Virus record (IMG/VR): IMGVR_UViG_3300025625_000001
Span: 1 to 40,022 of that record
Source of the DNA: a virus
Length of the DNA: 40,022 nt
Direction: 5' to 3' (one strand)
Position numbers and translations under genes: made by a program. How positions within the stretch are numbered: position 1 is the stretch's first letter; the number at the start of each line of letters is the position of its first letter. The notes under the pieces are model-generated. The model ran no database searches, was not told the origin of the DNA, and saw only the letters and a program-made list of their open reading frames with translations. Below, piece after piece: positions 11,201-32,560 of the stretch.

Positions 11201-11266
11201 CGGCTGCGACGGAGGAATGAGGCTCGGAGAAGCGGCTGGCGCGGGAGCGTCAGGCGTGAACGGCAT
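8210..11266 (-). CDS. large internal virion/ejection protein, polyvalent type
   Basis: 1018 aa, last gene of the late operon. A Pro/Ala-rich N-terminus (1-50) precedes helical regions. Residues 323-376 carry LFRYQAT, GGTFFSKD and KNPLKV, resembling the scaffold of ADP-ribosyltransferase-like domains. The part with IGFLSFLADPSLSNVTGT and NYGERSPLTQALAYLLPFATW resembles C-terminal regions of phage large polyvalent proteins. Size, position after the M15 fusion, and composition suggest a protein packaged in the head and ejected with DNA, like T7 gp16 or P22 ejection proteins. Starts in TAATG overlap with the upstream gene. Confidence 0.55.
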   Translation of the reverse strand: MPFTPDAPAPAASPSLIPPSQPVQAKSGFTPDAKAGAAPKAPPPPAKPGSGPLDAFKPVLGGAARAVGTGVGNVIDVLQRPQHMTAAAITGGPSKANTLVHGQSEASADQTRAELRQKFGITPFYDSLAKVEWTSPNGNVIPGHAVQGMIDFAIDTGTDPLTYLGGLGIIDAATARMGLKSATALAKGVNAAERTGTTPGRLAGQAYEFATVKGPALRGLIERNGEQGIAQHQGLRMINNARRTMQDDLGNTLVNQYRKVTQGLTEAEEHELYQAVHEGTTAQLPSKLGMRAAAFKRVTDSLAHLSGDQKLQEELRRAESPNLFRYQATSGQPEVSPRGGTFFSKDKPNATYTAEAGLGGKHLTSAVASAKNPLKVTGPYQDFGAGLGGVMEMRGPKSLRMIDNIVDQSTGKLRPENARKYLQALGVPKLEIEHLLSVSDDPEWAYHVYDRIASAMAQKRGFDAIETEREFFALHPESFRAPKPGGFQVGPEFQRFEGEQPRGMQMPEQYRQHYVPTAHDVSKFSQAQQAAGGITSLDPHAGVAQAESLEDVLKTHVASPEPATAKMSAEDQALKERGERAKLLAPELQRKVIEARLRGGASAIAARDAEQAAARLFGVKDFSKIPPEAKAFFVEAYTRPEDRSALQNIGHILKGAVDIPKHGLFALPFRHMMNIGFLSFLADPSLSNVTGTAGKFARLMLERSPEARAKILGKSLKYGVTGAPSIDRSPGWTGRIPILGEIYKASNHTLWTFDDAAKATRFGKLLKRYQRGGMAEPEAAAKAANDVGAEMVNYGERSPLTQALAYLLPFATWRTKMPGAIARATLKHPERPLALSRISPEITGDLQQGPPGSGKVGVAYTPMADAYRGVDNPYEFARAAAGWPLQMALAKAQQAGGQGNNYWSYYKEPNTQYALNETVGSFPGGDYLLRFPELFGKPPLTEFKDQGQPTSILPNLVRAQTGFGLKSGPSPRELAAKQHFDQQRAMIDSLRKQGYNAYADTLQKKLDTYMRYNPLFQK

Positions 11267-13299
11267 TAGGCGGCTCCAACCTGAAGGTGAACGTGCGGCT
11301 CCGCGTCGTCCTCAAAAAGGTCAACGCCGTGCTGCGCTGCCCAAGCCTTTAACCCAGACACAACTTCCCGATTCGTGCCGATGCGCGCCCATCCACCCGA
11401 GAGCACGGCGTTGGTCACGAAGTCCCAGGTGCGCTTGTCGTAACCGCCAAGGGCGCCTCCTGCATCTGCTGCAACGTCGATTGCCCGCCCATCGTAGTGA
11501 GCGCTATTCGCGACATGACCCTGCCAATGCCCCGCGGTGTCCTTGTGGCCGAAGATACTCGACACGACCAAGGAACCGACGTTCTGCAGTTTCGTGAACG
11601 CCGAGGCGAGAGTTTGCGAGACATTGCCCCACTGCTCGCGGACTGCATCGCTAGCCGCCTGGAAAGGGGGCTTGGCGTCGCTGCCTCCACGAATCGCGTT
11701 ACCGTTCTCGTCTACGGGCGTCCCGTCATCAAGGAAATGCTTCCCGCCCTGCTGGTAGCCGTGCTTCCCATTCGAGAAAGCGCCAGGGATTTTAGGCCCG
11801 GTATCCGCTGCTGGGGTCGGCGGAGCCGCGAACTTTTGAGGCGTAATCGGCTTCCCTTCCGAACGGCGCTTCAACTCCGCATAGCGTCCACGCTCCGTAA
11901 GGAGTTCCTTCGCGACCGGGTTCGCGTCTTTCCCGAGTGATTGCGCGTAGTAATCTGCTGCGTTAATCGGGTCCGGGTTCCGGTCGATGAGCGAGAACGT
12001 GCTCATGAGCCTTTTCACAAGGTCCCCGCCGATAGCCGCAGGAGCCGTCTTGGGCGTGCCGTCCGGGTTCATCATGGTCGTGTTCGTCTTTGGGTCCATG
12101 AGGGTTACAGGCTGCCCTTGCGATGTACGCGGCGGCCGCAGCGCCTTGCTCCACGCAGCGTAAAACTGTTGTTGCGTGCGCGATGCTTCCTCACGGAGCT
12201 TGGCCTGTTTCTCAGGATTTGCAAGTGTCGCCTTCGCATCATCATGCGCAAAGCGCCGGTCCTGCCGCGTGTCCTCGCGATTCTGACGGTCCTGCTCCAG
12301 GTTAATCTCGACAGCGAGCCGCTTATCCGCACGCTGACTTTCGGCTGCTTGCGCCGTAAGGGCACGATTCTCGGCGTCTAGGTCGCGCTTGTCGAGCCTG
12401 CGGTCCTCGCCCTGCTGCGTGATAGCGGCCTGCTGCAACGAACGAGCATTGTTGGCTTGGTCAATCGCCTCGCGCTCATAATTGCCAGCCGTCGCACGAT
12501 GCTCGGCAGCGACATTGTGCGCCCCTACCCCCTCGTAGAAGTTCGCAAGCTCCGTCTCGTGACGGAAGTAGTCCATTGCCCCAGGGGCACGTCCAGCACC
12601 AGGCGGCAAGATGCGTTGGAGATTCGGCGGCAACTGGAACGGCTGCTGCGTTCGCGGGTCGATACCCCGGTCGCGCAGGTCCTGCGCCGCGTTGTACTGC
12701 GCGACCGCGTTCGTGTAGGACGACTTCATCTGCGCGGCTTCTTGCTGGTACTGGCTCTGCGCGGATTGCTCGTCCCGGTTGAATCGGTTCTCGGCACCCT
12801 GCTGGAGCCCGCCAAGCGCACCGGCGGCTAATTTGGAAATCGGCGCACCCGGGAACAACAACGAGAGCCCCAGGAGCGCGTACTCTAGCCCCTTCGCGGG
12901 CTGATGGTACTGCGGCGGCTTAAAGACCGGCGTTCCCTCTTGCGGTACCGCGTCCGTATTCGAGTTTCCAGCGGGCGGCGGCGGAGCACCCGTTGGCGGG
13001 GGCGTAGAGCCCCCAGGAGGCGCCTGAGTCGCTGTTTGGCGCTGCGTGCCGGGGAATGGCTGCTGCGCGCCCTGAGCGCCCTGTGGCCCTTGCTGGGGCG
13101 GTGGCGGCGTAGAGGCCGCAATGAGCTGCATCTCCGCCTGCCGCTTCGCGCCCTTGGACCCCGGAGGCGGCTTTGGCGGCTGGGGCGGCACATTGGGACG
13201 CGGGGATTGGGGCGAGAACGGACGCGGTTGCGGCGGCACCATCAATGGGTCGAAATTGGGCGAGATGGGCGGCGGCGCTACCTGGCCGTAACTGTACAC
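11266..13299 (-). CDS. virion protein with C-terminal M15 peptidoglycan peptidase domain
   Basis: 677 aa. Residues 1-130 are Pro/Gln-rich low complexity. Residues ~150-175 are hydrophobic (YALLGLSLLFPGAPISKLAAGALGG). The centre is a long Gln/Arg/Glu coiled coil. The C-terminus has the M15 zinc peptidase signature SxHxxGxAxD (S599-AHYDGRAID, H601, D608) and HxH (H669, H671). M15 enzymes cut D-Ala peptide bonds in peptidoglycan. Fusion to a long virion-type protein suggests local wall digestion during DNA entry, not lysis. Confidence 0.7.
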   Translation of the reverse strand: MYSYGQVAPPPISPNFDPLMVPPQPRPFSPQSPRPNVPPQPPKPPPGSKGAKRQAEMQLIAASTPPPPQQGPQGAQGAQQPFPGTQRQTATQAPPGGSTPPPTGAPPPPAGNSNTDAVPQEGTPVFKPPQYHQPAKGLEYALLGLSLLFPGAPISKLAAGALGGLQQGAENRFNRDEQSAQSQYQQEAAQMKSSYTNAVAQYNAAQDLRDRGIDPRTQQPFQLPPNLQRILPPGAGRAPGAMDYFRHETELANFYEGVGAHNVAAEHRATAGNYEREAIDQANNARSLQQAAITQQGEDRRLDKRDLDAENRALTAQAAESQRADKRLAVEINLEQDRQNREDTRQDRRFAHDDAKATLANPEKQAKLREEASRTQQQFYAAWSKALRPPRTSQGQPVTLMDPKTNTTMMNPDGTPKTAPAAIGGDLVKRLMSTFSLIDRNPDPINAADYYAQSLGKDANPVAKELLTERGRYAELKRRSEGKPITPQKFAAPPTPAADTGPKIPGAFSNGKHGYQQGGKHFLDDGTPVDENGNAIRGGSDAKPPFQAASDAVREQWGNVSQTLASAFTKLQNVGSLVVSSIFGHKDTAGHWQGHVANSAHYDGRAIDVAADAGGALGGYDKRTWDFVTNAVLSGGWARIGTNREVVSGLKAWAAQHGVDLFEDDAEPHVHLQVGAA

Positions 13300-14348: not shown

Positions 14349-14759
14349 CTACCCTCCTACCCGCTGCGGCTGGAACATCTTTCCCAGCGCAATGGCTTCG
14401 ACCCTGTAATTGCGCTTCTTCAGCGCCTTGATATGCCGTGGCTTCGAGAGACTGACCAAGCCCCCGCACGCGACCGGCTCCTCGCGCTCGTCAGCCAGTT
14501 CCTGAGCGATAGCCTCGATACGCCTCCGAAGCAGCGCCAAGGCCCGCTCCCCCTCGCGTCCCGGTAAATCCCATAGTTCCTCGGTCACGAGCCCGTAGAC
14601 GCTCTCGTAGAGGCAGCAGAACGCAACGATGCGCTCGCGGTGCTCGACCACGAATCCGTAGCCCTTCTCGGGCCAGCGCCATCCCTGCGGCAACCCTTGC
14701 GCGTAGGCAATCGCGAGAATGCCCGGTGCATCGTCCGGGACCGGAGCGCGAACAGTCAT
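14349..14759 (-). CDS. GNAT-fold acetyltransferase-like protein, 136 aa
   Basis: The N-terminus TVRAPVPDDAPGILAI is the classic beta1-alpha1 of GNAT proteins. Next come strands GYGFVVEHRERIVAFCCLYES, a long charged helix, and a C-terminal LSKPRHIKALKKRNYRVEAIALGKMF typical of the last GNAT strands. The acetyl-CoA pyrophosphate loop (Q/RxxGxG/A) is not obvious, so the enzyme may be degenerate. GNAT-like proteins occur in the ejection-protein region of several podoviruses (e.g. compared with T7 gp13), which fits this position. ATGA overlap upstream. Confidence 0.6.
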   Translation of the reverse strand: MTVRAPVPDDAPGILAIAYAQGLPQGWRWPEKGYGFVVEHRERIVAFCCLYESVYGLVTEELWDLPGREGERALALLRRRIEAIAQELADEREEPVACGGLVSLSKPRHIKALKKRNYRVEAIALGKMFQPQRVGG

Positions 14760-15139: not shown

Positions 15140-16549
15140 TCAGCCGTCAATCCCATCGTCCGGCCCGCCCGCGTCATTCGAACAGCCTTTGCACTTGAAG
15201 TACGACGGCGGCTCCGTTACGGGAATCTTCACGAACGCCCGCGGCGGAGCAGTGAAGTCGAGTAATGTCGTCAGGTCGTCGCTAGTCCACGAATCGGCAG
15301 ACAGCAGCGACCCCTCCCCGAGTTTGAATGTCCCCTCGATGAGGCGAAGGATAGCAGCCTGGGAAGTATCCTGTGCATCCACCGCTCCAGGTTTGGAGTA
15401 AGCCGATGCGACCAAGAGCGGGACGCGAAATCCATACGTGCCCGTCGCCTTGCCAAGCACCGGCTTGTAGTGGTCGTAGAAGCCGCCCCAGTCGTCCCAG
15501 GTGACGACGATAGCCGTCGAGTTCCAGTAGGGTGAGGCGCCCACCGCGTCGATGATGTTGCCGACCCAATTCGGCCCGTCAGAGGCGACCTTGTAGTGCC
15601 GCGACGGGTGGTCGCTCCACTGCGCTGCGGGCATGATGTACGTCACGTTCGCGAGCTTGCCCGCAGCAATGTCTCCAAAGAACGCAGGCCCGCCCACGGT
15701 GTAGTTCGGCGAATTGTAGAGATGCTTGATGGCCTGCGGACCGCTCCAGAGCCCTCCGGCCTTGTTGCCGTAGTAGCGCCAGGTCAGGCCCTTGGCCGCC
15801 ACGATGTCAAAGATGGTCTGAACGTCGTAGCACGGGTACGCCTTCGAGCCTTCGATGCCAGGGAAGGCGCTGTTGAGTTGGATGCGCGTAACGGCAGTTC
15901 CAGCCGGTGACCCGCATTGCGTGTGCCCGCCGGAGCCTGTACCGCTCTTGATGCCGCCGTTCTCGACGAATCCCCACGGGTCGGAAGTAAAGCCGCCTGT
16001 GGAGTTGTCGATACCGCCAGCCTGCCCAGCAATCAGTTGCTGGTGCGCAGGGAACGACGGCCCCTGATTCAGTTGCAGGACGTGTGACGCCATGCCGTAG
16101 TTCGAGGCAATCGACCAGTACGCGGTTAGTTCGGACATCGGCACGTATGCGTAGACGGTGCCTTCCGGGCACTGCGAGAGGTTAAAGCCGTTCATGAGGC
16201 CGCCCGCGTACTGCGTCACGAAAGCATTATGCGAGTGCGACGGGCCGCACGAGGCGGCAAGCGATTGCGAGATAAGCGGCACGATAGCGTCGGAGGAGTT
16301 CTCCCCGTTCTGCACTGTATCCGCAGGACCCGGGAACGTCTTGCCGTCCGGGTATCCGTGGAACATATTGTCTTGCGTGCGGTTCTCTTGCACGACGACG
16401 ACGATGTGTGTGATGGGCGAACTCGCCGGAGCCGTTGGCCCAGCCGTAGCGGTTGGAACAGCACTTGGCGATGGGGTAGGCGGAGGCGGCGGTGGGGTGC
16501 CGCCACACGCTGCGAGCGCGAGAACCGCTACGGCAAGAAGCGCCTTCAC
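15140..16549 (-). CDS. lipoprotein phosphoesterase, phospholipase C/acid phosphatase family
   Basis: 469 aa, PF04185-like. Signal peptide with lipobox LAAC (C15), then a Pro/Thr/Ser linker (17-45). The metal-site residues known from Francisella AcpA are all matched: E55-N56 (QENRT), S165 (GPSFPAH) and D352-D353 (TWDDWGGFYDH, with H360). The C-terminus has a CKGC pair. The family hydrolyses phosphodiesters or phosphomonoesters, including phospholipids. With a lipobox it would be exported and lipid-anchored in the envelope. It lies directly downstream of holin-like genes and the endolysin, suggesting a role in lysis or envelope damage. GTG start overlaps the preceding stop (TAGTG). Confidence 0.85.
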   Translation of the reverse strand: MKALLAVAVLALAACGGTPPPPPPTPSPSAVPTATAGPTAPASSPITHIVVVVQENRTQDNMFHGYPDGKTFPGPADTVQNGENSSDAIVPLISQSLAASCGPSHSHNAFVTQYAGGLMNGFNLSQCPEGTVYAYVPMSELTAYWSIASNYGMASHVLQLNQGPSFPAHQQLIAGQAGGIDNSTGGFTSDPWGFVENGGIKSGTGSGGHTQCGSPAGTAVTRIQLNSAFPGIEGSKAYPCYDVQTIFDIVAAKGLTWRYYGNKAGGLWSGPQAIKHLYNSPNYTVGGPAFFGDIAAGKLANVTYIMPAAQWSDHPSRHYKVASDGPNWVGNIIDAVGASPYWNSTAIVVTWDDWGGFYDHYKPVLGKATGTYGFRVPLLVASAYSKPGAVDAQDTSQAAILRLIEGTFKLGEGSLLSADSWTSDDLTTLLDFTAPPRAFVKIPVTEPPSYFKCKGCSNDAGGPDDGIDG

Positions 16550-17161: not shown

Positions 17162-17500
17162 CTAGGTTCCCTTCGGCACGGTTGTGCCAACGGCTGGAAT
17201 GGATTCGGGATTCACGAGCACGTTCGGGATGCTCGTGGAGTTCGGGCTTTTGACCACGGTCGTCGCAGCGTCTCCGCCTTGCTTCGCGCGGTAGAACGGC
17301 CCGATACCGAATACGGCCCCGAGCAGTATCCCGAACCACGCGTGCCCCATGTAAACGAGGAACGACGGGCCATCGTTGAACCCGCCGTTGGTCGGCCCGA
17401 GCGTATAGCCGATGGTCACGGCGGCGACCGTCATCGACCACAGGCCGAGCGCCTGCGCGACGAGGAACGACTGAAGCGCGGCCCACGTCCAGGTGTTCAC
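17162..17500 (-). CDS. holin-like membrane protein, 112 aa
   Basis: Two hydrophobic segments (about 5-33 LQSFLVAQALGLWSMTVAAVTIGYTLG and 46-68 FLVYMGHAWFGILLGAVFGIGPF) are followed by a hydrophilic Ser/Thr/Pro C-terminal tail of about 40 residues. Position just after the endolysin and beside another small membrane protein fits a holin or antiholin pair. GTG start overlaps the upstream stop (GTGA). Confidence 0.5.
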   Translation of the reverse strand: MNTWTWAALQSFLVAQALGLWSMTVAAVTIGYTLGPTNGGFNDGPSFLVYMGHAWFGILLGAVFGIGPFYRAKQGGDAATTVVKSPNSTSIPNVLVNPESIPAVGTTVPKGT

Positions 17501-17679
17501 AGGTGCAACCCGGCCATCGGCAACAGAATCGAGAGCGCGAACAAGAGCGCGACGATGCAGATGATGACGAGGATGACCTGCTTGAACGGATTCGGCAGCG
17601 GCAGGAAGGCGCTAACGAGCCAGTAGATGACGCCGATAACGGCGAGGATGACGCAAAGGTGTACGAGTGACTGAATCAT
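17497..17679 (-). CDS. holin-like membrane protein, 60 aa
   Basis: Two membrane helices (LVHLCVILAVIGVIYWLVSAFL and QVILVIICIVALLFALSILLPM) are joined by a short Pro/Lys turn (PLPNPFKQ), the layout of a small class II holin. A perfect AGGAGG SD lies 5 bases before the ATG, and the endolysin gene ends just upstream. Overlaps the next membrane protein by GTGA. Confidence 0.6.
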   Translation of the reverse strand: MIQSLVHLCVILAVIGVIYWLVSAFLPLPNPFKQVILVIICIVALLFALSILLPMAGLHL

Positions 17680-17688: not shown

Positions 17689-18150
17689 CTAGAACGGGCT
17701 CAAGCCCGCCTCCAACAGTTGGTAGTGCTGCAAGCAGCGGTCTGAGTAATGGTCAGTCGTGAACTTCCCGATATCGCCTTGCTCGTGGCCCGCTTCGGCG
17801 CCACCGCGCCCAGCGTTGTACTCCGCAGCGATAGCGCGAACGAGGTCGTCCCCTTCCAGCCCCTCTGCTGCCCAAAACGTCTCGGCCGGAATCAGGAACT
17901 CTCGCACCGCGTAACGCACATTCGCTTCCGGTACGTCCCAGTTGTCGGGGTACGACGACGTGAGTTGCATCCAACCTTTGCCGCCGTCGCCTGATTCAAC
18001 ATTTGGGGAAAGGTCGTCACCTGTCTCGTTGACCTTGATGGCGTACGCCACAAGCGGCGAGAACGTTGGCTGCTCCGCGCACACGCTGTTGAAGATAGCC
18101 GCGCCGGGTAGGCTAGCCTGCAAGGGGCCGGAATGGATACCGTTTCTCAT
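17689..18150 (-). CDS. endolysin, lytic transglycosylase (SLT/GH23-like) domain
   Basis: 153 aa. Catalytic glutamate E42 in KVNETGDDL, then GKGWMQLTSSYP (58-68) and AIAAEYNAGRGG (106-117), the order seen in transglycosylase SLT domains. Conserved NVRYAVREFL precedes the last motif. It would cleave the MurNAc-GlcNAc bond of peptidoglycan. No clear signal peptide is present, so release through a holin is expected. The start at 18150 makes ATGA with the upstream gene; an in-frame ATG at 18168 would overlap more. Confidence 0.85.
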   Translation of the reverse strand: MRNGIHSGPLQASLPGAAIFNSVCAEQPTFSPLVAYAIKVNETGDDLSPNVESGDGGKGWMQLTSSYPDNWDVPEANVRYAVREFLIPAETFWAAEGLEGDDLVRAIAAEYNAGRGGAEAGHEQGDIGKFTTDHYSDRCLQHYQLLEAGLSPF

Positions 18151-18530
18151 GGATGCAACCTCAACCATTGCGTAAGTGCGGTAACGAGCGCGGTCACGGC
18201 AACAAGCGCTGCGTACAATTCCGTGCGCGTAATGAACGTCCCGGCTTGGTCCTTAAGCTGACCGCGGAACTCGTTTTGCGTTGCGTTCACGCGGCCTTGC
18301 GAATCCTCGGCCTTCGTCGTCGCGCGGTCGGCTGCGACAAGCGCGGCCCCAACTGCTTCCTTCGAGTCAATGAACCGCTGCTCGTATCGACGGTCGTTGA
18401 GCCTGATGGTCTCGGCGATTCCCTCAATTTTGGACGATATGAACTTCTCCAGCGTGTCGAGAGTCCAGCCGTTCGGGCTAAGGTCACCAGCCACATCCGG
18501 CTCCTCGTAAGGAGCAAGCTGGAGCGTCAT
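18147..18530 (-). CDS. coiled-coil protein with C-terminal membrane anchor (lysis-associated)
   Basis: 127 aa. A central long helix (DTLEKFISSKIEGIAETIRLNDRRYEQRFIDSKEAVGAALVAADRATTKAEDSQ) and a C-terminal hydrophobic segment (LYAALVAVTALVTALTQWL) are visible. Small phage proteins with this helix, the FRGQLKDQAGTF-type segment and a terminal membrane anchor are commonly next to endolysins and are sometimes annotated as holins. ATGA overlap with the endolysin supports a lysis role. Confidence 0.55.
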   Translation of the reverse strand: MTLQLAPYEEPDVAGDLSPNGWTLDTLEKFISSKIEGIAETIRLNDRRYEQRFIDSKEAVGAALVAADRATTKAEDSQGRVNATQNEFRGQLKDQAGTFITRTELYAALVAVTALVTALTQWLRLHP

Positions 18531-18635: not shown

Positions 18636-19826
18636 CTAGCCAGCCTGCTTGGGCTTTCCCAGCACCGGCTTACAGCGGCACGTCAGCAGCCAGCAGCAGG
18701 GCGGAGCGCCCGGCGCCGACGAGAACGCCGCAGCCACGAGCTGGTTCCAATTCGTCGTCGCGTTGCAGCCCGTGTAGTTGTGCAGGCACGTCACGTCCTC
18801 GTACGAGTAGTAGAGAATCATGCCGAGCGTGTTCCCGAACAGTGCATAATTGCGCATCGTCTGAATCTGGGTCTGCGTCGGATACGGGCAAAGAGTAATC
18901 GTTCCGCACCCGCCATAGCCGTAGTAGAACGCCGTGAACGCCTGAACGACAAACCCCGGCTTCTCGGCAGCGTACGTCGCGGCGATAGACGTGTTGAAGT
19001 TCTGCATGATGCCCGCAATATCGGACATTTTCTGCCCGCCGCCGTTCCGGTTCTCGGGAATCGGGTAGTAGTCCAGGTTCTCGTACGGCGACTGCGCAGC
19101 CATGAGCCACGCGTAGACTCCGCTACACTCGGACTGCCCATTACACGACGTGAGGTTGTTGATTTGGGTCTGCCCACCGGCGCACGAGAACCCACCCCCG
19201 CCGCACGGAGGCCCCGCTGCCGTCGCCGTGCCGACGACCTTCTTCGTGCTATGCGCCTGGAGGTACAGCGCGAGTTCATCGACGTTCTGATACCGGCACG
19301 AGCCGACCCCAGCGTTGCAGGCGCTCTGCGCGTACATGCCGCCCTGGCAGTAGCCGATGGCCGTATGCGGGCAACCGTACTCGTCGTAGATGTAGTAGCC
19401 CCAGCAGCCCGCCGACGCATCGCACTGAGCAATAAGGCAATCGATGACCTGTTGATTCGTCGTCGCGCCGCAGTCAGTCGCGTAACTCGACCCTCGCGCG
19501 GTGAGCGAATCAACGAGACTCGTCGCCGTGAGAGCATCCGTCGTGTTGATGGACGACTGCTGAATCGGGATGATTTGCTGGATGCCGGCCGTAGCGCTAT
19601 CCGCTAGCCACGAGGCGATGCTGCCCGTTGCGCCCGTCTTGTGCGCGATGAGCGTGTTGTAGTCCACCTCTAAGGTGAACCCTCCGGTAGCCTGTTGCTG
19701 CATCGCTGCGAGGCACGTCGAGTACGTGTCCTGCACGTCGCACGTCGAATAGAGTCCCTGCGGCGGGAGCGCTGCTTCGGCACCGAGGGGAACCAGCACG
19801 AGTAGGAGCGCGAGTAGGTACTTCAT
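18636..19826 (-). CDS. secreted Cys-rich TIM-barrel-like protein, putative glycoside hydrolase
   Basis: 396 aa. A Sec signal peptide (MKYLLALLLVLVPLGAEA, cleavage after AEA) precedes alternating strand/helix units of the TIM-barrel type: GFTLEVDYNTLI, GIQQIIPIQ, GCWGYYIYDEYG (D148, E149), VVGTATAAG, GVYAWLMAA, NLDYYPIPEN, GFVVQAFTAFY and GMILYYSYEDV. The YDEYG strand end is where glycosidases often place an acid. Many Cys residues suggest disulphides in the periplasm or outside. It probably acts on a host surface glycan; family not assigned. Starts at ATGA with the upstream phosphoesterase paralogue. Confidence 0.55.
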   Translation of the reverse strand: MKYLLALLLVLVPLGAEAALPPQGLYSTCDVQDTYSTCLAAMQQQATGGFTLEVDYNTLIAHKTGATGSIASWLADSATAGIQQIIPIQQSSINTTDALTATSLVDSLTARGSSYATDCGATTNQQVIDCLIAQCDASAGCWGYYIYDEYGCPHTAIGYCQGGMYAQSACNAGVGSCRYQNVDELALYLQAHSTKKVVGTATAAGPPCGGGGFSCAGGQTQINNLTSCNGQSECSGVYAWLMAAQSPYENLDYYPIPENRNGGGQKMSDIAGIMQNFNTSIAATYAAEKPGFVVQAFTAFYYGYGGCGTITLCPYPTQTQIQTMRNYALFGNTLGMILYYSYEDVTCLHNYTGCNATTNWNQLVAAAFSSAPGAPPCCWLLTCRCKPVLGKPKQAG

Positions 19827-21103
19827 AGCCAATTCCTATTCCGGGACCAATCGAAGAACGTAAGGCCGTTGTCCGGCTCGTACTGCTCAAGCGCCCCAAC
19901 CTTCGGTGCCTGCGGAAACATCGAGTAGATGAGCTGCATGACGGTGAGCAGCGTGCGCGGTGTGTGATCGACGTATCCCGGTTTCGCGAACGGCGATATG
20001 ACGATGAGCGGCACACGCGCTCCGTACTCCAGGGGGTTCGGCGTCGGGCCATTTGGGTTCGGAGCGAACGGCGGCGGCTGGTTGTCATACCAGTTCCCAC
20101 CATTGACCCAGAGCAGAATGATGACCTCACTACCCCAATACTTCTTTCCCGGGCCGCAGGCGTTGATGACGGATGACACCCAATTCGGGCCGGGGCATCC
20201 GCCGGAGCACGACGGCGAGCCCTGCTCGAAAGCATCGTCGCTGTCGTCTTGCCCTGCCACGGTCGTATCGTTCGGGGTCACGAACGTCACGGCAGCCTGG
20301 TTTGTCGTTCCGCAGTCGGTGAGCACTTGCGTTTCCGGCGTAATGACGTTCGCGGCGTATTCGCTGCCGTTGAAGATGCTGCTGATAGCCGCTGGGGCGC
20401 ACGCTCGATTCGTTTTGAGGTTGCAGTAATATTTCCAGGGCACGCCTGCGGTATCAAGCGACGAAAAGATGGTAGAGATAACGAGGCACGGGTACGCTCC
20501 GTTCACCTCGGCCCCGGGGAATCCGGGCGTCATCGCAACGTACCCGACCGTCGTGCCGCCCACAGCGTAACAGCCGACGTTGGTAAGGTCGCCGAGATGG
20601 TTGTTCGCGAAAGCGTCAAACGGCGAAACATATCCGCCGGTCTGCCCGGCGATCGTGTAGAGGAACGACGGCCACACCGATACCTTGCCGGGAGCATACG
20701 TCGCATCACTCGTTGCATAGGTGTGCGCGAGCGTGCAGTAGCCGTTCGGTGAGGCGTTGACCTGCGATGCGGGAATGTACGAGTACGCAGTATTTCCCGT
20801 TCCGCCCGTCACGGTGAGTAGGTCATACCCGTTCATGGGGCACGACGTTCCGGTGCAGTTATCCGCGACGAGTTGCTGCGTGTACGTGTGCTGCGGATTC
20901 CCGAGCGCGACGAGCGACCCGGCAACGACCGTCACGGCCCCGCCTGTGTGATTCTGCCCCGTCTTGGTGAGGTTCTGAACACCTGCCGGAGCGCAGTCAG
21001 CGAACAGGTTATTCAGCGACCGACCCTCTTGTTCGATGACCACGATGTGGTCGATAGGAAGCGGCGCCTGGTACGCTACGTAGGCAGGAGGCGCTGGCAG
21101 CAT
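19823..21103 (-). CDS. degenerate phospholipase C-like phosphoesterase paralogue
   Basis: 426 aa, clearly related to the lipoprotein at 15140-16549: IDHIVVIEQEGRSLNNLF, IAGQTGGYVSPFD, FPGAEVNGAYPC, PWKYYCN and PGPNWVSSVINACG all align. Metal-site positions are mostly changed: N56 is G27, S165 aligns with V143, and D352-D353 align with W332-V333 (LWVNGGNWYDN). It lacks a signal peptide and starts at 21103 (TAATG overlap). It is likely a non-catalytic binding or structural version, perhaps a tail component or partner of the active copy. Confidence 0.75.
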   Translation of the reverse strand: MLPAPPAYVAYQAPLPIDHIVVIEQEGRSLNNLFADCAPAGVQNLTKTGQNHTGGAVTVVAGSLVALGNPQHTYTQQLVADNCTGTSCPMNGYDLLTVTGGTGNTAYSYIPASQVNASPNGYCTLAHTYATSDATYAPGKVSVWPSFLYTIAGQTGGYVSPFDAFANNHLGDLTNVGCYAVGGTTVGYVAMTPGFPGAEVNGAYPCLVISTIFSSLDTAGVPWKYYCNLKTNRACAPAAISSIFNGSEYAANVITPETQVLTDCGTTNQAAVTFVTPNDTTVAGQDDSDDAFEQGSPSCSGGCPGPNWVSSVINACGPGKKYWGSEVIILLWVNGGNWYDNQPPPFAPNPNGPTPNPLEYGARVPLIVISPFAKPGYVDHTPRTLLTVMQLIYSMFPQAPKVGALEQYEPDNGLTFFDWSRNRNWL

Positions 21104-21810
21104 TAGAACCCATACGAAGGGACACGAAAGATACAAATCGCTTGGACAACGGCGGCGGCGAGATTCGCGCTTGCCGTATACGTTGCAGCCAACGGTGCTG
21201 GGTAAACCAACGTCGTCATTACGCTGCTTGTAGCTCCGCTCAAAAGAGTCGCCGGAGCCCACCCAGGAGAAGCGTTTGTAGGACCAATGGCTCCGTTCGG
21301 AACGAACACAGCGATAAGCATATCGCTGGCTAACGCGGCCACCCCAGAGGTCGTCAGGGTGTTCGCGGAGGCTGGCCCAGACCCAGCAAACCCTGCGGGA
21401 GTTCCCGCATTTACCAACTCGAACATCATCAGGCTTTTTGCTGATGCGCTACCGTCGGAAAAGACGCAGTTGTCAGATGAGTTGCCCGTCGGAGGACTCC
21501 GGTAGTACACCGTAATCTGTTGTAAGGAACCGCTGGACAGTTGCTGCCCTAATTGCGTGTACCCCGTCGGAGTTACCGTTGTATGATTGACATCTGCCGC
21601 CAAGCAAATGATAACGTGGTCCGCTCCAGTCCCAGCCGTTTGCGTTAGTGTTCCGGTAACTGAGGCCGTAGCTGCAAATATGACTGTTTGTTGAATGGCC
21701 ACAGGCGGATGCACCACGCACGGGCCGTTTCCGCACGCCACTGCGTTCGCCGCAAACGCGACTCTCGGCAGCGACAACAGGAGCACCGCGAAAAGCAACA
21801 GGCGTTTCAT
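21103..21810 (-). CDS. exported beta-sandwich adhesin-like protein, 235 aa
   Basis: Sec signal peptide MKRLLLFAVLLLSLPRVAFA (cleavage after AFA). The mature part resembles the tail-associated domain with VTPxGYTxLG, YYRSPPTG...DNCVFSDGS and MMFELVNAG...SDMLIAVFVPNG, seen in phage and bacterial surface proteins. Start ATG 21810 (TGATG); GTG 21813 is possible. Adjacent genes are a lipoprotein and the phosphoesterase paralogue, all likely coupled. It probably binds a surface ligand. Confidence 0.55.
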   Translation of the reverse strand: MKRLLLFAVLLLSLPRVAFAANAVACGNGPCVVHPPVAIQQTVIFAATASVTGTLTQTAGTGADHVIICLAADVNHTTVTPTGYTQLGQQLSSGSLQQITVYYRSPPTGNSSDNCVFSDGSASAKSLMMFELVNAGTPAGFAGSGPASANTLTTSGVAALASDMLIAVFVPNGAIGPTNASPGWAPATLLSGATSSVMTTLVYPAPLAATYTASANLAAAVVQAICIFRVPSYGF

Positions 21811-22805
21811 CACTTCGTCACCACCACGACGTTACTCGTCAGCGCCGAGTTTATTTTATACGCCAGACCAGCCGAGAGTGGATAGCGTAACGTAATGACC
21901 TGCCCTGCCCCCATGACGACTGTCGTCCCATCGCCCCAGACGAGTGTCGCGGCAGCGCACGTTGCCGCTGCATCGTTGTAAAACTGCATGAATACGATCT
22001 GCGCTGGCCCGGCGTTACCAATCGAAAAGAGAGTTGTCGGGGCAGCGATGATGTTTGTGCAAGCCGTTGCAGATGACGAGGTGAGAGTCGTCGCCGTCGT
22101 TCCCCCGTCGTTGACCCACAACCCGCCGCCTTGCCCCGCGGGAGCGGTCGGATACGGAGAAGGGAACGGAATCGGCGTCGGAAACGCTCCAGACACCGGA
22201 ACGGTTCCAGTCACCTGAACGCACGGAGCGCTCGGAGCGCCGGGACAGGTCGGAGCAACGTACGGCGGAGCCGTATTAACCGTTACGATTCCGGTGATTT
22301 GCGTGCACGGCGCATTCGGAGCGCCGGGGCAGGTCGCTTGCGAAGTGACGATAGGCGGCAGTGATGAGATGACGACAGGTGGCAAAGACGACACGACAAC
22401 CGTTCCGCCAGCGCCACCGCCGCTTCCGCCTCCCGAGAGGTTGCAGACAATCGTGTACGTCAGCGGACCCGTTACGGCGGTGATGTGCAACTGGAAAAAC
22501 CCAATGGCCTGCGTGGACGAGTTGATGGCAACCGTCGTCGTCGTGCTCGTGGAAATTGCCGAGCCGACATTCGTCCAGTTGCTCTGGTCGTTTGAAGTAC
22601 GCGGTTGAGCCGAAAACGACCCAGCCGTATTCGTCGTAATCGAGCACGAGTTCTGTCCGCTCAAGGGGACGTTGATATCCGCAGGCGCTCCAATCGTATT
22701 CGTTGGAGCACCGACTTGGTTGACCGCCGTGCTCTGCCCGAGCAGGCCAACGCATCCCGCTATGAGCGAGAAGGCTAGGCCGATTGGCGCAAGTAGTTTC
22801 TTCAT
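21810..22805 (-). CDS. lipoprotein with beta-rich fibre-like region, 331 aa
   Basis: Signal peptide with lipobox LIAGC (C18). The mature part has a strand-rich domain (SCSITTNTAGSFSAQPRTSNDQSNW...), a Gly linker, and two copies of CPGAPxAPCxQxTGxVxV, a Val/Pro fibre-like repeat. The C-terminal domain ends VVVVTK. The N-terminal region resembles phage fibre segments of the AVNQVGAPTNTIGAPADINVPLSG type. It lies 3 bases after the tailspike gene. A lipoprotein in a fibre cluster is unusual; it may be displayed on the infected cell instead of the virion. Confidence 0.55.
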   Translation of the reverse strand: MKKLLAPIGLAFSLIAGCVGLLGQSTAVNQVGAPTNTIGAPADINVPLSGQNSCSITTNTAGSFSAQPRTSNDQSNWTNVGSAISTSTTTTVAINSSTQAIGFFQLHITAVTGPLTYTIVCNLSGGGSGGGAGGTVVVSSLPPVVISSLPPIVTSQATCPGAPNAPCTQITGIVTVNTAPPYVAPTCPGAPSAPCVQVTGTVPVSGAFPTPIPFPSPYPTAPAGQGGGLWVNDGGTTATTLTSSSATACTNIIAAPTTLFSIGNAGPAQIVFMQFYNDAAATCAAATLVWGDGTTVVMGAGQVITLRYPLSAGLAYKINSALTSNVVVVTK

Positions 22806-22808: not shown

Positions 22809-24857
22809 TTACTCCGCAAAGAACTGCACGCTGGTGGGCTTGACAACGTAGGAGTATACGACCGTGCCGCCTGCTGGGCAACGTATCGTATTATTGCTGG
22901 CAACAAGCCCGTTCGTTCCTCCCGATACGTTGTTCACGATTCCGAGATTAACGCTGGTGCCACCACTGTGAACGAAGAACCCGTCGAACCCGAAGGTGTT
23001 CTGGACCGTTTGGGTTACTCCGCCCCAAGATGCTGTGCTGATACCGATGCAGATGCCGGTCGGGTTGTACCCCGCGTTGTTGCGCACGACCCACGTTGGC
23101 CCGAGGCCCGAAGTCGCCAGCGTGTTCCCGTTCTGAATCTGCCCGCCAGCCGCAACGGTTCCGTTCTTCATCGCTATGTCGTTGTCGCAGACGGTTACGG
23201 TGGCTGAAGCGTCATCCGCCTGGATGAAGTAGTTCCCGTTGCCCACGGTAACGTCGTTATCGTTAATGTGGATGGAGTTCCGAACGAAAGCACTCGTCGG
23301 AATGTGAACCATCGGAGTCGCGACTCCACCGCCTTGGTGAAGTCCGCCGCTGATAATGCGACAGAGGCCCGTGTTCCGAATATCGATCGTGTAGTTCGTC
23401 GCCTGGGATTTGCCCTTGGCCGAACCGCCCAAGTTCCCGCCTACGATGTCTACGAACCCGGGACCAGTGGTCGAGGTATCACCGATGATGGTCCCGCCCT
23501 CGAACCATGCCTGCTCCAGGTTCAACTGCGCGTGGTCGCCACCGAAGTAGGCCGACCCGCAGCCAGTTGTCATGCCCGAAGCGTTTGCCAGCGCACCGAT
23601 GTAGTCAGTCGCATCGCCAGGCCACAGTCCGTTATCCGTGCCACCGGAAAGTTGCGCCTGATTCGCCGTCAGCGTAAATCCGGTCCCGCTCGTTGCCGAG
23701 GTCTTGAGTTTGTTTCCGCCTTGGCCCGGCTCCGTCGCCGTAATGGTTACGACGTTGCTATTCGCCGTAGCCGTGACGGCCTGGTAATCTCCGGGGTTGC
23801 TGATGAAGTTCGACAGCGTGTTGAAGTAGGTCGTGATGGCTGCGGCGTCCAAAGTCGCCTGATTCGCCGCCGAAGTTCCCGTCGTTTCGGAGCATACCAC
23901 TGCGTTCCCCGTAATCGTGTAGGTATGCGTCTGCCCGGTCAACGCCGTCAGCGTGAGCGTGTACGTTCCTTGAGCGAAAGTGAACTGCGTTGCAGGCGGA
24001 GGCCCAAAGTTCGCCTCCGGGTCGAACATGTAGAACGTGCCGCCCTTGTACGAGCCGCTTGAGTTCATCGACAGAATCGACATACACCCAAAGAACGGCG
24101 TCTCGAACATCTTCGGGTCGGCGCCGCCATCGGAAACGAGCCCGTAGGTTCCGCCGTTGATGGTGTTCCCCAGGCCCTTCAGTCCGTGCCCGTACTCCAA
24201 GATGCCGAGATAATCGCCTGCGAACTTGCAGCCGTACATGACGTTGCGCCCACCGCCAGCGAACAGCTTTAGGCCGATTCCAACGCCTTGCGTCGTAATG
24301 TTGTAGAACCGCGTATCGGTTACGCCGACCACCGGAACGTTCGCGCCGTACGTTCCCTGCGGACCACCGATGTTGATGGCCGAGCCAGCAATCGACACAT
24401 TGGGCTTCCGGTTTCCCGTCGCACAAATGATTTGCATGTTCATCCACGTCATGCCCGTGCCGTGAGACGCGCCCGGCGGAACGCGGAACACGTCGTAATC
24501 GCCAGCCGCTGATACGACTGACGATTGCCCATCCCCAAAAAACGTTAGGAGGTTCGGCGTGTCGATAATAATTGCGCCCGTCTGCCCTGACGGCTGGACG
24601 ACGTTGTACTGCCCGCTCCGAGGAGTCGGGAAATATATCGCGTTCCCTTGTCCGCTCGCCATCGCGGCTTCGGTGCAGTCTTGGACGGCCTGGGTATCGT
24701 CGTTCCCGCCCCCGACATCGGTTCCATAGTTCTGGACATTGAAGGCATTCAGCCCGCCCTGCGTCTGAGCCAGAACGAAGGCGAAGTTCTCGTTTACGAG
24801 GTCCGCATCAGCCAGCGTATCGGGAACGAAGATGTTTGGAACTGTCGGTGTAGCCAT
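22809..24857 (-). CDS. tailspike/tail fibre with right-handed beta-helix
   Basis: 682 aa. An N-terminal anchor (VPNIFVPDTLADADLVNENFAFVL) shared with the next fibre is followed by an entry region typical of pectate-lyase-like helices (DTQAVQDCTEAAMASGQGNAIYFP) and many short beta rungs (NVMYGCKFAGDYLGILEYG, SIHINDNDVTVGNGNYFIQADD). Residues ~285-400 look like an inserted beta domain (TYTLTLTALTGQTHTYTITG...VTATANSNVVTITATEPGQGGN). Such spikes bind and often cut host polysaccharide; catalytic residues cannot be picked out by eye. Confidence 0.65.
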   Translation of the reverse strand: MATPTVPNIFVPDTLADADLVNENFAFVLAQTQGGLNAFNVQNYGTDVGGGNDDTQAVQDCTEAAMASGQGNAIYFPTPRSGQYNVVQPSGQTGAIIIDTPNLLTFFGDGQSSVVSAAGDYDVFRVPPGASHGTGMTWMNMQIICATGNRKPNVSIAGSAINIGGPQGTYGANVPVVGVTDTRFYNITTQGVGIGLKLFAGGGRNVMYGCKFAGDYLGILEYGHGLKGLGNTINGGTYGLVSDGGADPKMFETPFFGCMSILSMNSSGSYKGGTFYMFDPEANFGPPPATQFTFAQGTYTLTLTALTGQTHTYTITGNAVVCSETTGTSAANQATLDAAAITTYFNTLSNFISNPGDYQAVTATANSNVVTITATEPGQGGNKLKTSATSGTGFTLTANQAQLSGGTDNGLWPGDATDYIGALANASGMTTGCGSAYFGGDHAQLNLEQAWFEGGTIIGDTSTTGPGFVDIVGGNLGGSAKGKSQATNYTIDIRNTGLCRIISGGLHQGGGVATPMVHIPTSAFVRNSIHINDNDVTVGNGNYFIQADDASATVTVCDNDIAMKNGTVAAGGQIQNGNTLATSGLGPTWVVRNNAGYNPTGICIGISTASWGGVTQTVQNTFGFDGFFVHSGGTSVNLGIVNNVSGGTNGLVASNNTIRCPAGGTVVYSYVVKPTSVQFFAE

Positions 24858-24860
24858 AAC

Positions 24861-25550
24861 TTATACTCCTGTCGCGCGCCAAAAGACGTTGAGCAGCGAA
24901 GTCGAAACCGAGTTCGGACCCGTCAACGAGAACGCGTCCAACTGGATGACGCTGTATGGGGTTGAAATCTGCGTGTTGACGTACAGCCCCGCGCCACCCG
25001 TCCAACCCGGAACGGACGGCTTGCCGACCCACGTTGCCTCGACCGTCGGCTCCAGCGTAAACACCGCATCTCCCGACAACACAATCGTAGCCGAACCCGT
25101 GTTGACGCCACTCGGAATCGAGATTTGGGCCTTGCCGCCAACAGCATGAACCGCCGTGCCGACATCCGCTCCAGCAGCCGTCAGATTAGGAGCGAGTGTT
25201 CCAAGACTGATGCCGCCCAACTTAATCGCCTGCACCGGTCCCTGAATCTGCGCCTGGTTCTGCCGAATGACCGTCTGGGTCCCAAGCGACGGACCGACCA
25301 TGACCGCTCCAGACGCCGTGATATTCGAGATGACCGATACGTCGTGAACGAACGAGTACGGCAGCGTGCCGCCAAACGTCGCTGTCGTCGAGTCAATCGG
25401 GATAATCTGCGAGGCATAGAACCCGAGCGGGCCAACGTCCGAGTGGTCGATGGTTCCGATGCCCTGCGCCAGCGCGGCAAAGTTCGCGTTCACCTGCGAC
25501 GAGAGAATCGTCGTGTCGGGAGTAAACGTAAACGGAACGGATACAGCCAT
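24861..25550 (-). CDS. tail fibre/appendage protein, 229 aa
   Basis: N-terminus PFTFTPDTTILSSQVNANFAALAQG parallels the tailspike N-terminus (PDTxxxxxxVNxNFA), so both probably dock on the same tail site. The rest is beta-rich with Thr/Val/Gly strands and ends VNTQISTPYSVIQLDAFSLTG, like a C-terminal jelly-roll. SD GGAAG upstream; the gene begins right after the nozzle stop on this strand. Likely a minor fibre or adaptor for the spike. Confidence 0.5.
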   Translation of the reverse strand: MAVSVPFTFTPDTTILSSQVNANFAALAQGIGTIDHSDVGPLGFYASQIIPIDSTTATFGGTLPYSFVHDVSVISNITASGAVMVGPSLGTQTVIRQNQAQIQGPVQAIKLGGISLGTLAPNLTAAGADVGTAVHAVGGKAQISIPSGVNTGSATIVLSGDAVFTLEPTVEATWVGKPSVPGWTGGAGLYVNTQISTPYSVIQLDAFSLTGPNSVSTSLLNVFWRATGV

Positions 25551-27209
25551 TTACGTTCTTCCTCTCTGGTGCATAACGAGACTCATCCCGGCAAATATCC
25601 ACGGCGCAAGAGCCTGCGTCATCTGCACCCCAAACGAAAACGACTCCGCCTGCGTCCCGGGGTAGTCGATACGCGTCGTCGGAGCGGCAAACGCCAAGAA
25701 CTGCGGACCGCTCTCATTCGCCCAATCGGCGTTGTCCCACGCCGATACGTCCCAGATGCCGAAGAAGCTCTCGTACGGCAAATCCAGTGGCGTCGTGACG
25801 GTAGACACCGACCCGTAGTTGACGAGCATCACCCAATTCGCCAGGAACTCTCCCGATATGAAGAACTCGGGATACGCGCGCTCCATCGCCTTATTCGTTC
25901 CGGGTGCGCCAATCTTGTAGAACTTGGTCTGGAACTGGGCAAGAATCGGAGTCGTATCGTCAAGCGCTGGCTGGTTCGCAATCGGCTCAACGTCCCAGGT
26001 ATAGACCCGGCCATTCGTGCCGCCCACCATCGCCGTGTACGGGTCCGGGTCCGTTGGTGCATCGAGTAAGCACATCGACGCAATCCCCGGAGTCGGGCGC
26101 AGCACGGTCCAGCCGCCAATCGCCAAGTCGAATACGAGAATCGTATCAGGCTGCGCCGTTTGGGAAGCATAGCCGAGATGCAGGCGGTTGTTGTAAACCT
26201 CCATCCACGAAAACGCTCGGTTGAACGCCAGGGGGAAGCCCGGGTAGGTCGGGATGGAGGTTGTTACCCGATTCAGAATCCACGGCTCCACCTTTTCGGA
26301 GATAGGCGTGGGAATCTGCCCGAGCCCGAAAGCGTACACGGCACTGTGCCCGAGAACGAACACTTGCCCATTCCAGGAAATCATTGCTCGCCCGGCCACA
26401 GCCGCATCGGCAAACGGCGTTTCCTGCTGGTAAAAATTCGATGGGCCCGTTCCGGAAAGGATGGCAAACCCGTCGTTGAGCCCAACGATGAGCGCTGCTT
26501 GTGCTCCCGTGCCGCTCGCAGCCAGACCCATGACGGGAGACGAGTAGACGAAGTTCCGGTACGCCGGAAGCGTCTCCATCGACTCGATGATGCCGTCACC
26601 AGTACCAAAAACCTGATTCGGGGCGGTCGCGATGCCACCGAACCACAAGATTCCGTTCACGACAGCGCACCAGTTAGCGCCGCGTGCATTGTGCCAGCCA
26701 GCCGGAGCGTACAAGTTCGTTCCGTCGTAGATGCGAGGGATGCCATTCCCGTTGCAAATGACTAGGCAGTCCGTCAGCCCGCTTGTAAAGTTCGGGTCGT
26801 TCGGATTCTGGATACGCGCAAAGCACGGCGGATTCAGGACGCCAGAGCCGACTAAGCCAATGAGGTCGTTCGAGGTCGGCGTTACGACGAATAACTGGTC
26901 CTTGTGGAGCGCGATGAGTTGCGTCGTTTGCGGGCTGACGGCGGCGCCGTTGAGAACGCCCTGATAGAAGCGCGCAAGGTAGACTGGCTCCGTTGTCGGG
27001 AACGGGACGCCGAACGGCGTCATGCCATTCCGCATCTGGAACCCGCCATCCGAGGTCAGGTAGCCATCTTGGGCAATCGCCAGGTCGCTGTCGGGGAGCG
27101 CTTGCGGCAACGACTTCACATTGAGCCCGCCGCGGAAGCCATAAATGCCGAACTCCTGCGACTGCGTCGTGCCAGTCTGGAGCGCGCCAAGGCGCGTAAG
27201 AGTCGGCAT
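25551..27209 (-). CDS. tail nozzle/stabilisation protein (P22 gp10-like)
   Basis: 552 aa. The N-terminal FGIYGFRGGLNVKSLPQALPDSDLAIAQDGYLTSDGGFQMRNGM is the hallmark of podovirus nozzle proteins (GGLN...P..L...EA......G....R.G). It continues with repeated beta-propeller-like blades (QLIALHKDQLFVV, CLVICNGNGIPRIYDGTNLY, VNGILWFGG, GQVFVLGHSAVYAFG, NNRLHLGYAS). It would form the distal tail tube below the adaptor encoded next door. Starts at ATGA with the adaptor gene. Confidence 0.7.
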   Translation of the reverse strand: MPTLTRLGALQTGTTQSQEFGIYGFRGGLNVKSLPQALPDSDLAIAQDGYLTSDGGFQMRNGMTPFGVPFPTTEPVYLARFYQGVLNGAAVSPQTTQLIALHKDQLFVVTPTSNDLIGLVGSGVLNPPCFARIQNPNDPNFTSGLTDCLVICNGNGIPRIYDGTNLYAPAGWHNARGANWCAVVNGILWFGGIATAPNQVFGTGDGIIESMETLPAYRNFVYSSPVMGLAASGTGAQAALIVGLNDGFAILSGTGPSNFYQQETPFADAAVAGRAMISWNGQVFVLGHSAVYAFGLGQIPTPISEKVEPWILNRVTTSIPTYPGFPLAFNRAFSWMEVYNNRLHLGYASQTAQPDTILVFDLAIGGWTVLRPTPGIASMCLLDAPTDPDPYTAMVGGTNGRVYTWDVEPIANQPALDDTTPILAQFQTKFYKIGAPGTNKAMERAYPEFFISGEFLANWVMLVNYGSVSTVTTPLDLPYESFFGIWDVSAWDNADWANESGPQFLAFAAPTTRIDYPGTQAESFSFGVQMTQALAPWIFAGMSLVMHQRGRT

Positions 27210-28381
27210 CAGCGGTTCAACCAGAATGGGCTGCTCGGGTAATTCAGGTTGTACGTGTCACGTACCTGACCGCTCCGCGGGAATGTCCGAGACTTCACAG
27301 ACGACTTGACCGATTCGACCATCTGCTCGAACTCTTGCCGCCAGGGCGGAATCTCCGCCGCACGCGACCGATTCGCCAGCGTGCGCATGACCGCAAACAG
27401 CACGACGCACTCTTGAATCGCCGTGTCCAGGTTCGTGTACGATGCGTCGGTCGCATCAGCCCACAGAAGCGGACGCATCCGGCAGTACGCATTCACCTGC
27501 CCGTTTTGCGCCGCGGGGTACAACTGCATCCACAGCGTACCGCCACCCTGCTGCCCGCCCGTCGTGTTCACGGTCGGCGGATTCGTCGCTGAGATGGCAA
27601 ACGGCGGAGGAATCGTAAACGGCGTTCCGAGCGCCAAAGGCGCCGGGTTCTGGAGATAGTACGGGCCTCCCTTATTTCCAGCGAACACATTCCAGCTAGT
27701 CGCGTCGCCAACCGCTGCCGGTGACTGCACCAGAACCGCCGTTGCCGACTGCAGCACGATGTCCGATACGAGCGAAGGAGTGGTCTGCCCCTGCGTGTCC
27801 AGCAACGTCACCACGACCTCAACCGTCTGGAGCGCGAAGTTGGCAAACCAGTACGTCTGATTCCAGTTCCCCTCGTTCCAGACCAGGAACAGCCCCGTGT
27901 CCGAGACGAGCGATAGGGACGGAGCCGGAGGAGCATCCAGCGGCGTAGACGGCGCAAGCCCCTCGTCCCGGTAGATGAAGTAGGCTTGAGGCGGACCGAA
28001 CCCAACCGCAGGGAATCCCGCAGCGCCGTCCATGAACTGCGCCTGGGTCAACTGCATCATCGGCGTAACGAGTGCGCCCTGCGCAAACGGAGAAGCGCTT
28101 CCGTTGCTCTGCGAGCTTGCATTTGCCATCGAGAAATTAGCCGACTCGATGTACTGAATATCGTTCGAGAGTTGCAGCGTCGGCTGATTCGTAACGGTCG
28201 GGAACGACTTGACGGTAAAGATGCCGCCCACGCGCCGCTCGACTTCTTCCAGCCCTTTGTTTCCAAAGTTCAGAACCGTTTGGTCGGGCGGAAGCGTTGG
28301 CTCGTTCGTGTAGTCACGCACGGCCTGGACAAACTGCAAGCCGTTGTAGCCGACAGGAGCGCTGGGGGTTGCCACAGCCAT
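27209..28381 (-). CDS. head-tail adaptor/tail accessory protein (P22 gp4-like) with inserted domain
   Basis: 390 aa. The N-terminus (LQFVQAVRDYTNE...VLNFGNKGLEEVERRVG) and C-terminus (YCRMRPLLWADATDASYTNLDTAIQECVVLFAVMRTLANRSRAAEIPPWRQEFEQ) form the helical core expected of gp4-like adaptors. Residues ~155-270 look like an inserted Ig/fibronectin-like strand domain (APSLSLVSDTGLFLVWNEGNWNQTYWF...). Position before the nozzle supports the call. Family usual length is shorter, consistent with an insertion. Confidence 0.55.
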   Translation of the reverse strand: MAVATPSAPVGYNGLQFVQAVRDYTNEPTLPPDQTVLNFGNKGLEEVERRVGGIFTVKSFPTVTNQPTLQLSNDIQYIESANFSMANASSQSNGSASPFAQGALVTPMMQLTQAQFMDGAAGFPAVGFGPPQAYFIYRDEGLAPSTPLDAPPAPSLSLVSDTGLFLVWNEGNWNQTYWFANFALQTVEVVVTLLDTQGQTTPSLVSDIVLQSATAVLVQSPAAVGDATSWNVFAGNKGGPYYLQNPAPLALGTPFTIPPPFAISATNPPTVNTTGGQQGGGTLWMQLYPAAQNGQVNAYCRMRPLLWADATDASYTNLDTAIQECVVLFAVMRTLANRSRAAEIPPWRQEFEQMVESVKSSVKSRTFPRSGQVRDTYNLNYPSSPFWLNR

Positions 28382-31367: not shown

Positions 31368-32387
31368 CTAGAGATTCGCCAGGTCGTTACAAGGACCGAT
31401 GAACCCGTTGAGACGGGGATTGTCGGACGCGCAAGCCAGACCGATAACGTACCGGCAGGTTTTCTCCAGCACGTTCGGCGTGTCAATCCACGGCACGAAA
31501 TCGAAGCCCTTTTCGCCGAAGTAGCGGAACTTCGTGTGGTTTCCGTTGACGAAGTACATGTCGTAACCGACATTGTTGCCGTTCGCGATGGTGTCGAAGT
31601 GCGTATCGCCAATCCACTGCGCTCCGAGCGTGTGCGGGTTCCCGAGATACGGGTTTGCGCTATCGCCAGGCGACACGCGGACTTGAGCGTCCATCGAGAA
31701 CATGTACGACGCGACGATTTGCTGGTGTCCGAACACATGGGTCGGAGCAGCATCGCCAACCGTGCAGGCGGCGTACTCACGCAGGACCTGCGAACGAGGA
31801 AGGTCGTTCGTCGCCGTACCGAGGTTGCCGGTCGAGAACGAGATGACGTTGCCTTGCCAGTTCGCGAACGAGTTGGTCCCCAACCGCGCGATGTTGGCGT
31901 AGACGTTGTAGAGTTGCCCGTTGTCGCACGCTTCGGGAATCCCGACAAGCGGGTTGCCTCGCTGCGTTGAGCGACCCTTGGTGGTCGAGCAGGTGTCCTG
32001 CCCGAGAAGGTCTGTGAGCGAGCCGATGGCCGTCTCGACCTGCACCGTCAGATTGTCCACGCGCATGTTCGGTCCCCGAACGAGGCGGACGGTGATGTAG
32101 TCGAGAGACACGGCTGCTTGATACCAGGACCAGGGCATCGACGCAACGCTGTAGAGCGACTGCGGACCGCTGGAGAGGGTATCGTACTGGCCGAATGATT
32201 CGGCCGTATCGTTCTTGTTGCTCAGGATGGGAAACGCGAGCCAACGACCTTCGTCGTGCTTCTGAGCGTTGTCCCACATAACGCGCACGACTCGGTTCCC
32301 TTGGAAAACCGCGTCGGAGACGTATGGAGCGAAGGACTCCGCGAGAATCGCGCTGTCCTGGTCAAAACCGCCTAAATTGGCTGGCAT
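31368..32387 (-). CDS. major capsid (coat) protein
   Basis: 339 aa, in the right size range for an HK97-fold coat. Typical elements are an N-terminal region (SFAPYVSDAVFQGNRVVRVMWDNAQKHDEGRWLAFPILSNKND), a central helix (LTVQVETAIGSLTDLLGQ), and late strands (VIASYMFSMDAQVRVSPGDS-like and DTHFDTIANGNNVGYDMYFVNGNHTKFRYFGEKGFDF). It follows the scaffold gene and has its own promoter, a long leader and an SD (GGAGA), consistent with very high expression. Confidence 0.8.
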   Translation of the reverse strand: MPANLGGFDQDSAILAESFAPYVSDAVFQGNRVVRVMWDNAQKHDEGRWLAFPILSNKNDTAESFGQYDTLSSGPQSLYSVASMPWSWYQAAVSLDYITVRLVRGPNMRVDNLTVQVETAIGSLTDLLGQDTCSTTKGRSTQRGNPLVGIPEACDNGQLYNVYANIARLGTNSFANWQGNVISFSTGNLGTATNDLPRSQVLREYAACTVGDAAPTHVFGHQQIVASYMFSMDAQVRVSPGDSANPYLGNPHTLGAQWIGDTHFDTIANGNNVGYDMYFVNGNHTKFRYFGEKGFDFVPWIDTPNVLEKTCRYVIGLACASDNPRLNGFIGPCNDLANL

Positions 32388-32457
32388 GTACGGTTCTCCA
32401 AAATCGGAAACGCTGTGCGTCTCTACGGTCTTGGGGCTGTCGCGGTTGTGGCCGAGG

Positions 32458-32471
32458 GCTCCGATTGGAGC
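32458..32471 (-). other. leader hairpin 2 of coat mRNA
   Basis: GCTCC/GGAGC 5-bp stem with a 4-base loop inside the 5' leader between promoter and coat gene. May add structure to the leader; weak on its own. Confidence 0.3.
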
Positions 32472-32544: not shown

Positions 32545-32560
32545 AGGGGCCGACACGGGG

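Follow-up and report, generated by a model that had tools for sequence, protein, structure and literature searches.

We find that the virus contig analysed here, the whole 40,022 nucleotides of which we call the window, encodes an intact lipoprotein of the AcpA/phospholipase C (PLC) type (PF04185). The contig is that of a soil-type bacterial virus, and the protein, P1, is 469 aa long and encoded on the minus strand (15140..16549, GTG start). The family, the fold, the lipobox and the intact active site are clear, as are an accessory distribution among phages and a similarity to lipoproteins of Candidatus Eremiobacterota. The reading that we favor, and to which we give about an even chance, is that P1 is a phosphoesterase captured from among bacterial surface lipoproteins, an accessory protein that would act on extracytoplasmic phosphoesters during infection.

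Family, fold and enzyme class of P1

The assignment of P1 to PF04185, made initially from the sequence alone, was confirmed by an HMM search (E value of 1.8e-45; 156 bits against a cut-off of 23), with residues 46 to 410 of P1 covering positions 1 to 355 of the 356 in the profile. The five AcpA-type metal-site residues listed in the initial annotation (E55, N56, S165, D352, and D353) all occur in P1, and together with H105, H169, and H314, which fall in conserved columns of the alignment, they make up a complete catalytic set. By sequence, the closest solved relative is AcpA (2d1g; E value of 4e-22). The AlphaFold model of P1 (pTM of 0.81; weak over the first 40 residues and two loops) also has AcpA as its top Foldseek match (E value of 3.9e-23), followed by bacterial, fungal, and plant phospholipases C, and the expected AcpA/PLC fold is thus borne out by structure prediction. 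The profile match, the metal, nucleophile, and histidine residues, and the fold all place P1 in the AcpA/PLC superfamily.

The N terminus of P1, VKALLAVAVLALAAC, was predicted to be a signal peptide ending in the lipobox LAAC with C15 (16505..16549, minus strand), in agreement with what had been seen earlier; signal peptides were called here with a simple in-house scorer and not with SignalP. The alignment with homologues points the same way, with a cysteine in the lipobox column of 131 of the 138 cellular homologues aligned with P1. Judged by this N-terminal signal peptide and its lipobox cysteine, P1 would be a bacterial-type lipoprotein.

The phospholipase C activity that was initially suggested is not supported. 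P1 scored 85 bits against the PC-PLC equivalog TIGR03396 (cut-off of 580) and 86 bits against the acid phosphatase TIGR03397 (cut-off of 362), and since both scores are below the cut-offs, neither curated name fits. P1 shares the fold and the catalytic constellation of PC-PLC/PlcH, PlcN, and NPC4. However, it is of AcpA size, with no room for an NPC4-type C-terminal domain, and has a serine at the position of the NPC4 nucleophile, Thr158; in NPC4, the hydrolysis of phospholipids requires this extra C-terminal domain, which is missing from AcpA (PMC9837106). With AcpA, P1 has in common the fold, the five metal and nucleophile residues, the serine nucleophile, a similar length, and the lack of an added C-terminal domain, although the two proteins are only 21% identical and P1 is a phage-encoded lipoprotein with a predicted activity. 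Because of the serine nucleophile and the AcpA size, P1 appears to lean towards a phosphatase or a general phosphodiesterase.

The family in phages and in Eremiobacterota

Related phages were gathered through their major capsid protein (MCP), and further PF04185 copies were found through alignment-based scans of a viral collection, while scans of viral contigs with single proteins gave no match with P1 or with the second PF04185 protein of the window, P2. Among the 14 contigs that share the capsid protein, PF04185 is present only in G010 and G011, which are near-identical and carry it once each; their proteins have an intact site and a signal peptide without a lipobox. Five of the seven MCP-related contigs of 39 to 54 kb lack the family and one lineage (G010/G011) has it, and it is an accessory gene in these phages. 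The scans added six viral contigs (G166 to G171), all with phage hallmark genes. In four of them (G166, G167, G168, and G169), the encoded protein carries a cysteine at the lipobox position and the gene lies in a replication and accessory region beside DNA polymerase A, Prim-Pol, and Dam or other methylases; in G170, the gene lies between the terminase and the portal. The replication region is a usual place for phage accessory genes. Since most of the other phage copies lie there or in the terminase-portal interval, the family has no fixed link to lysis genes. G169 carries a tail sheath and G171 an HK97-type portal and a tape measure, showing that these phages are unrelated. In all, there are ten PF04185 genes on nine viral contigs from several unrelated phage lineages, the viral copies require several separate entries on the tree, and several unrelated tailed phages have taken up the family separately. 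Contigs of the Acinetobacter "phage MD-2021a" in the phages collection, annotated as encoding a non-hemolytic phospholipase C, gave weak matches of 23 to 27% and were set aside.

The presence of this family in tailed phages seems to have gone unreported. There was no match to PF04185 in PHROGs, the matches to the AcpA/PLC fold in the BFVD viral structure library came from giant viruses only, and our literature search gave no case of a tailed phage with an AcpA/PLC-fold enzyme, an absence that is not proof. Mycobacteriophage Gp48 is, like P1, a phage-encoded phosphoesterase, but it belongs to another family, being a calcineurin-like metallophosphoesterase that disrupts host DNA (PMC12287305).

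The nearest cellular homologues of P1 come mostly from metagenome-assembled genomes of Candidatus Eremiobacterota (Vulcanimicrobiota). These lipoproteins resemble P1 in the lipobox, a low-complexity linker, and the catalytic set, at 35 to 40% identity, but they are chromosomal and have many paralogues per genome. In a sample of the phylum, the family was present in 30 of 58 genomes and reached at least 28 copies in 5 of the 58, and some genomes have 37 to 91 PF04185 genes. The expansion, to between 28 and 91 genes that are often in tandem, was seen in G017, G019, G016, G038, G052, G064, and G077.

The match of both the catalytic set and C15 to this cellular lipoprotein family argues for capture, as does the location among replication genes of the four other phage copies whose products have a cysteine at the lipobox position. 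Against capture, P1 itself is located in the late region next to lysis genes and not with replication genes. P1 also falls among long branches on the tree, making its placement, and with it any assignment of a donor, unsure. Searches of Eremiobacterota with the capsid protein and with DNA likewise gave no firm match: the window MCP had one weak match among 148 genomes of the phylum (and none among 199 Acidobacteriota genomes), and DNA and spacer matches to a host were at noise level in the half of the window that was searched. An Eremiobacterota host for this phage is plausible.

Gene neighborhood and possible roles of P1

The minus-strand order in the window is portal, capsid, adaptor, stopper-like gene, fibre genes, lysis genes, P1, and then more conserved genes. 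The gene for the terminase large subunit (38345-40021) lies on the plus strand, unlike the portal gene, and is cut off by the end of the window, so that the contig is incomplete. Comparison with the seven related contigs of 39 to 54 kb showed that P1 and P2 lie in a variable stretch. Its upstream edge is the gene for a virion protein in a stopper-like position (25551..27209, minus strand), which is kept in all seven relatives, and its downstream edge is formed by the genes at 14756 and 14349, the latter (14349..14759, minus strand) having a homologue in seven of seven. Outside this stretch, a long virion-type protein (11266-13299) has a D,D-peptidase-like C terminus (HYDGRAIDV...HVHLQV) and no Pfam match, and its counterpart in G003 has a transglycosylase-like stretch.

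The interval between tail and lysis genes (18636-22805) holds a run of three minus-strand genes for fibre-like or Cys-rich proteins with signal peptides, two of them plain and one with a lipobox. These are a fibre-like protein whose sequence contains its own lipobox, LIAGC (C18; 21810..22805), a protein encoded immediately ahead of P2 (21103..21813), with a strong Sec signal peptide (MKRLLLFAVLLLSLPRVAFA-A), and a Cys-rich protein with a Sec signal peptide for which a family search gave no match (18636..19832). Comparable runs occupy the same place in G010 (23014-27243) and G006 (31496-36016).

The position of P1 among these genes, in a variable tail and receptor region with three other signal-peptide proteins, together with its resemblance to an abundant family of host surface lipoproteins, would fit a role in superinfection exclusion, where P1 displaces, mimics, or dephosphorylates a surface structure bound by related phages. 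Phage surface lipoproteins with such a job exist, for example, Llp of T5. However, the known exclusion lipoproteins are small and non-enzymatic, nothing in the window points to a receptor, and some phage copies of PF04185 sit with replication genes. We regard this role as possible but rather doubtful; among the alternatives to capture for phosphoester hydrolysis, it ranks first, before a virion function and then lysis.

The neighborhood of lysis genes described in the initial annotation was recovered: about 1.1 kb upstream of P1 there are, all on the minus strand, a lysozyme/transglycosylase-like open reading frame (ORF) and small membrane ORFs. The putative endolysin (17689..18168) was recognized by eye and has a homologue in G012 (36%), while profile and PDB searches with it gave no match. 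The holin candidates are hydrophobic ORFs of 60 aa (17497..17679), with a homologue in G008, and 112 aa (17162..17500). A scan for small lipobox ORFs, which picked up its positive controls (lambda Rz1, lambda Bor, and T7 18.7), did not reveal any small spanin-like lipoprotein in the window. The earlier statement that no spanin pair is evident does not extend to the whole phage, since the contig ends inside the terminase gene.

It had been proposed that P1 finishes lysis in place of spanins. In a wider form of this reading, P1 would be a lipid-anchored phospholipase that ruptures the outer or inner membrane as infection ends, instead of or besides spanins, and would work like LysB or spanins. 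The late strand and the distance of 1.1 kb to the putative endolysin, the lipobox, the membership in a superfamily that includes phospholipases C, and the window without a spanin-like lipoprotein are in line with this proposal, and in G010/G011 the PF04185 gene is no more than about 1.2 kb away from an amidase endolysin. However, most of the other phage copies are distant from lysis genes, five of the seven long MCP relatives lack the family, P1 is far under the PC-PLC cut-off, and the incompleteness of the window weakens the spanin argument. Co-occurrence in related phages gave no correlation either: in relatives without PF04185, a scan of the same type turned up no clear o-spanin candidate near those lysis genes that could be identified, while G010/G011, which have PF04185, encode a 49-aa lipoprotein between this gene and the endolysin, and the lack of spanins is thus not linked to the presence of the family. 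The 49-aa lipobox ORF of G010 (26097-26246) is a possible o-spanin. P1 itself has the lipobox of the o-spanin Rz1 but is a large, globular enzyme of 469 aa and not a small lipoprotein. An attack on envelope lipids, as by lipolytic lysis enzymes such as mycobacteriophage LysB, was likewise proposed for P1, which, however, is not conserved with lysis genes. The association of P1 with lysis genes appears weak, and we consider a lysis role improbable.

A second, catalytically dead copy

The window holds a second PF04185 gene, not mentioned in the initial annotation, about 3 kb from P1 (19823..21103, minus strand; E value of 3.7e-21). Its product, P2, has 426 aa when counted from its ATG, which overlaps the preceding gene's stop codon, and it has no signal peptide. 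The active site is lost, with the changes N56G, S165V, H169F, H314D, D352V, and D353N (P1 numbering) removing the asparagine, the serine nucleophile, two conserved histidines, and the aspartate pair, while the model (pTM of 0.88) keeps the AcpA/PLC fold and has non-specific phospholipases C as its best PDB matches (8k3g, E value of 1.3e-19; 8haw, E value of 3.7e-18). A homologue in contig G171 (L139:4595-5821) is 45% identical, also has a dead active site and no signal peptide, and forms a fully supported pair with P2 on the tree. The two proteins share the N-to-G, H169-to-F, and D352-to-V changes, both have a non-polar residue in place of the nucleophile, and both show the unusual start MLP..APPA..VAY. 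We considered a frameshift fusion of P2 to the preceding signal-peptide gene, but the homologue in G171 keeps this start with no such gene in front, which argues against a fusion. The HK97-type portal, terminase, and tape measure of G171 mark it as another kind of phage than that of the window, and the fact that the dead version stays open in two unrelated phages suggests that it has a non-catalytic use.

P2 and its G171 relative both lack a signal peptide and sit in tail modules, and fibre-like proteins are also found in the P1 region, as would be expected if P1 and P2 were tail-associated virion parts that, on entry, attach to phosphorylated polymers of the surface or cleave them. However, the lipobox of P1 is clear and conserved with cellular lipoproteins, so that processing is expected, and neither P1 nor P2 has the recurring N-terminal motif (FTPDTT..QVNANFAA-type) of the tail-fibre genes. 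We find a virion function unlikely. More speculatively, phages may have recruited the host surface phosphatase family in two forms, as a lipid-anchored surface remodeler and as a dead, signal-less protein; if this is true, the dead version (P2 and its G171 relative) would serve for binding in the virion tail or act as an internal decoy.

In conclusion, we favor for P1 a gene that would have been captured from a host-type family of bacterial surface lipoproteins and sits in the variable stretch that separates the tail genes from the lysis genes. Late in infection, its product would be synthesized, exported by Sec, and then lipid anchored, and would hydrolyze phosphoesters outside the cytoplasm, at the host envelope, where the benefit may be the release of phosphate for virus production or the trimming of phosphorylated groups on the host surface. 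P1 is thus a testable case for phosphate or surface remodeling in infection, and the retained dead copy, P2, is the most unusual part of the finding and a further puzzle. Our findings also show that phages have repeatedly taken up a family whose copy number is very high in some Eremiobacterota genomes, which connects phage accessory genes with this poorly studied soil phylum.
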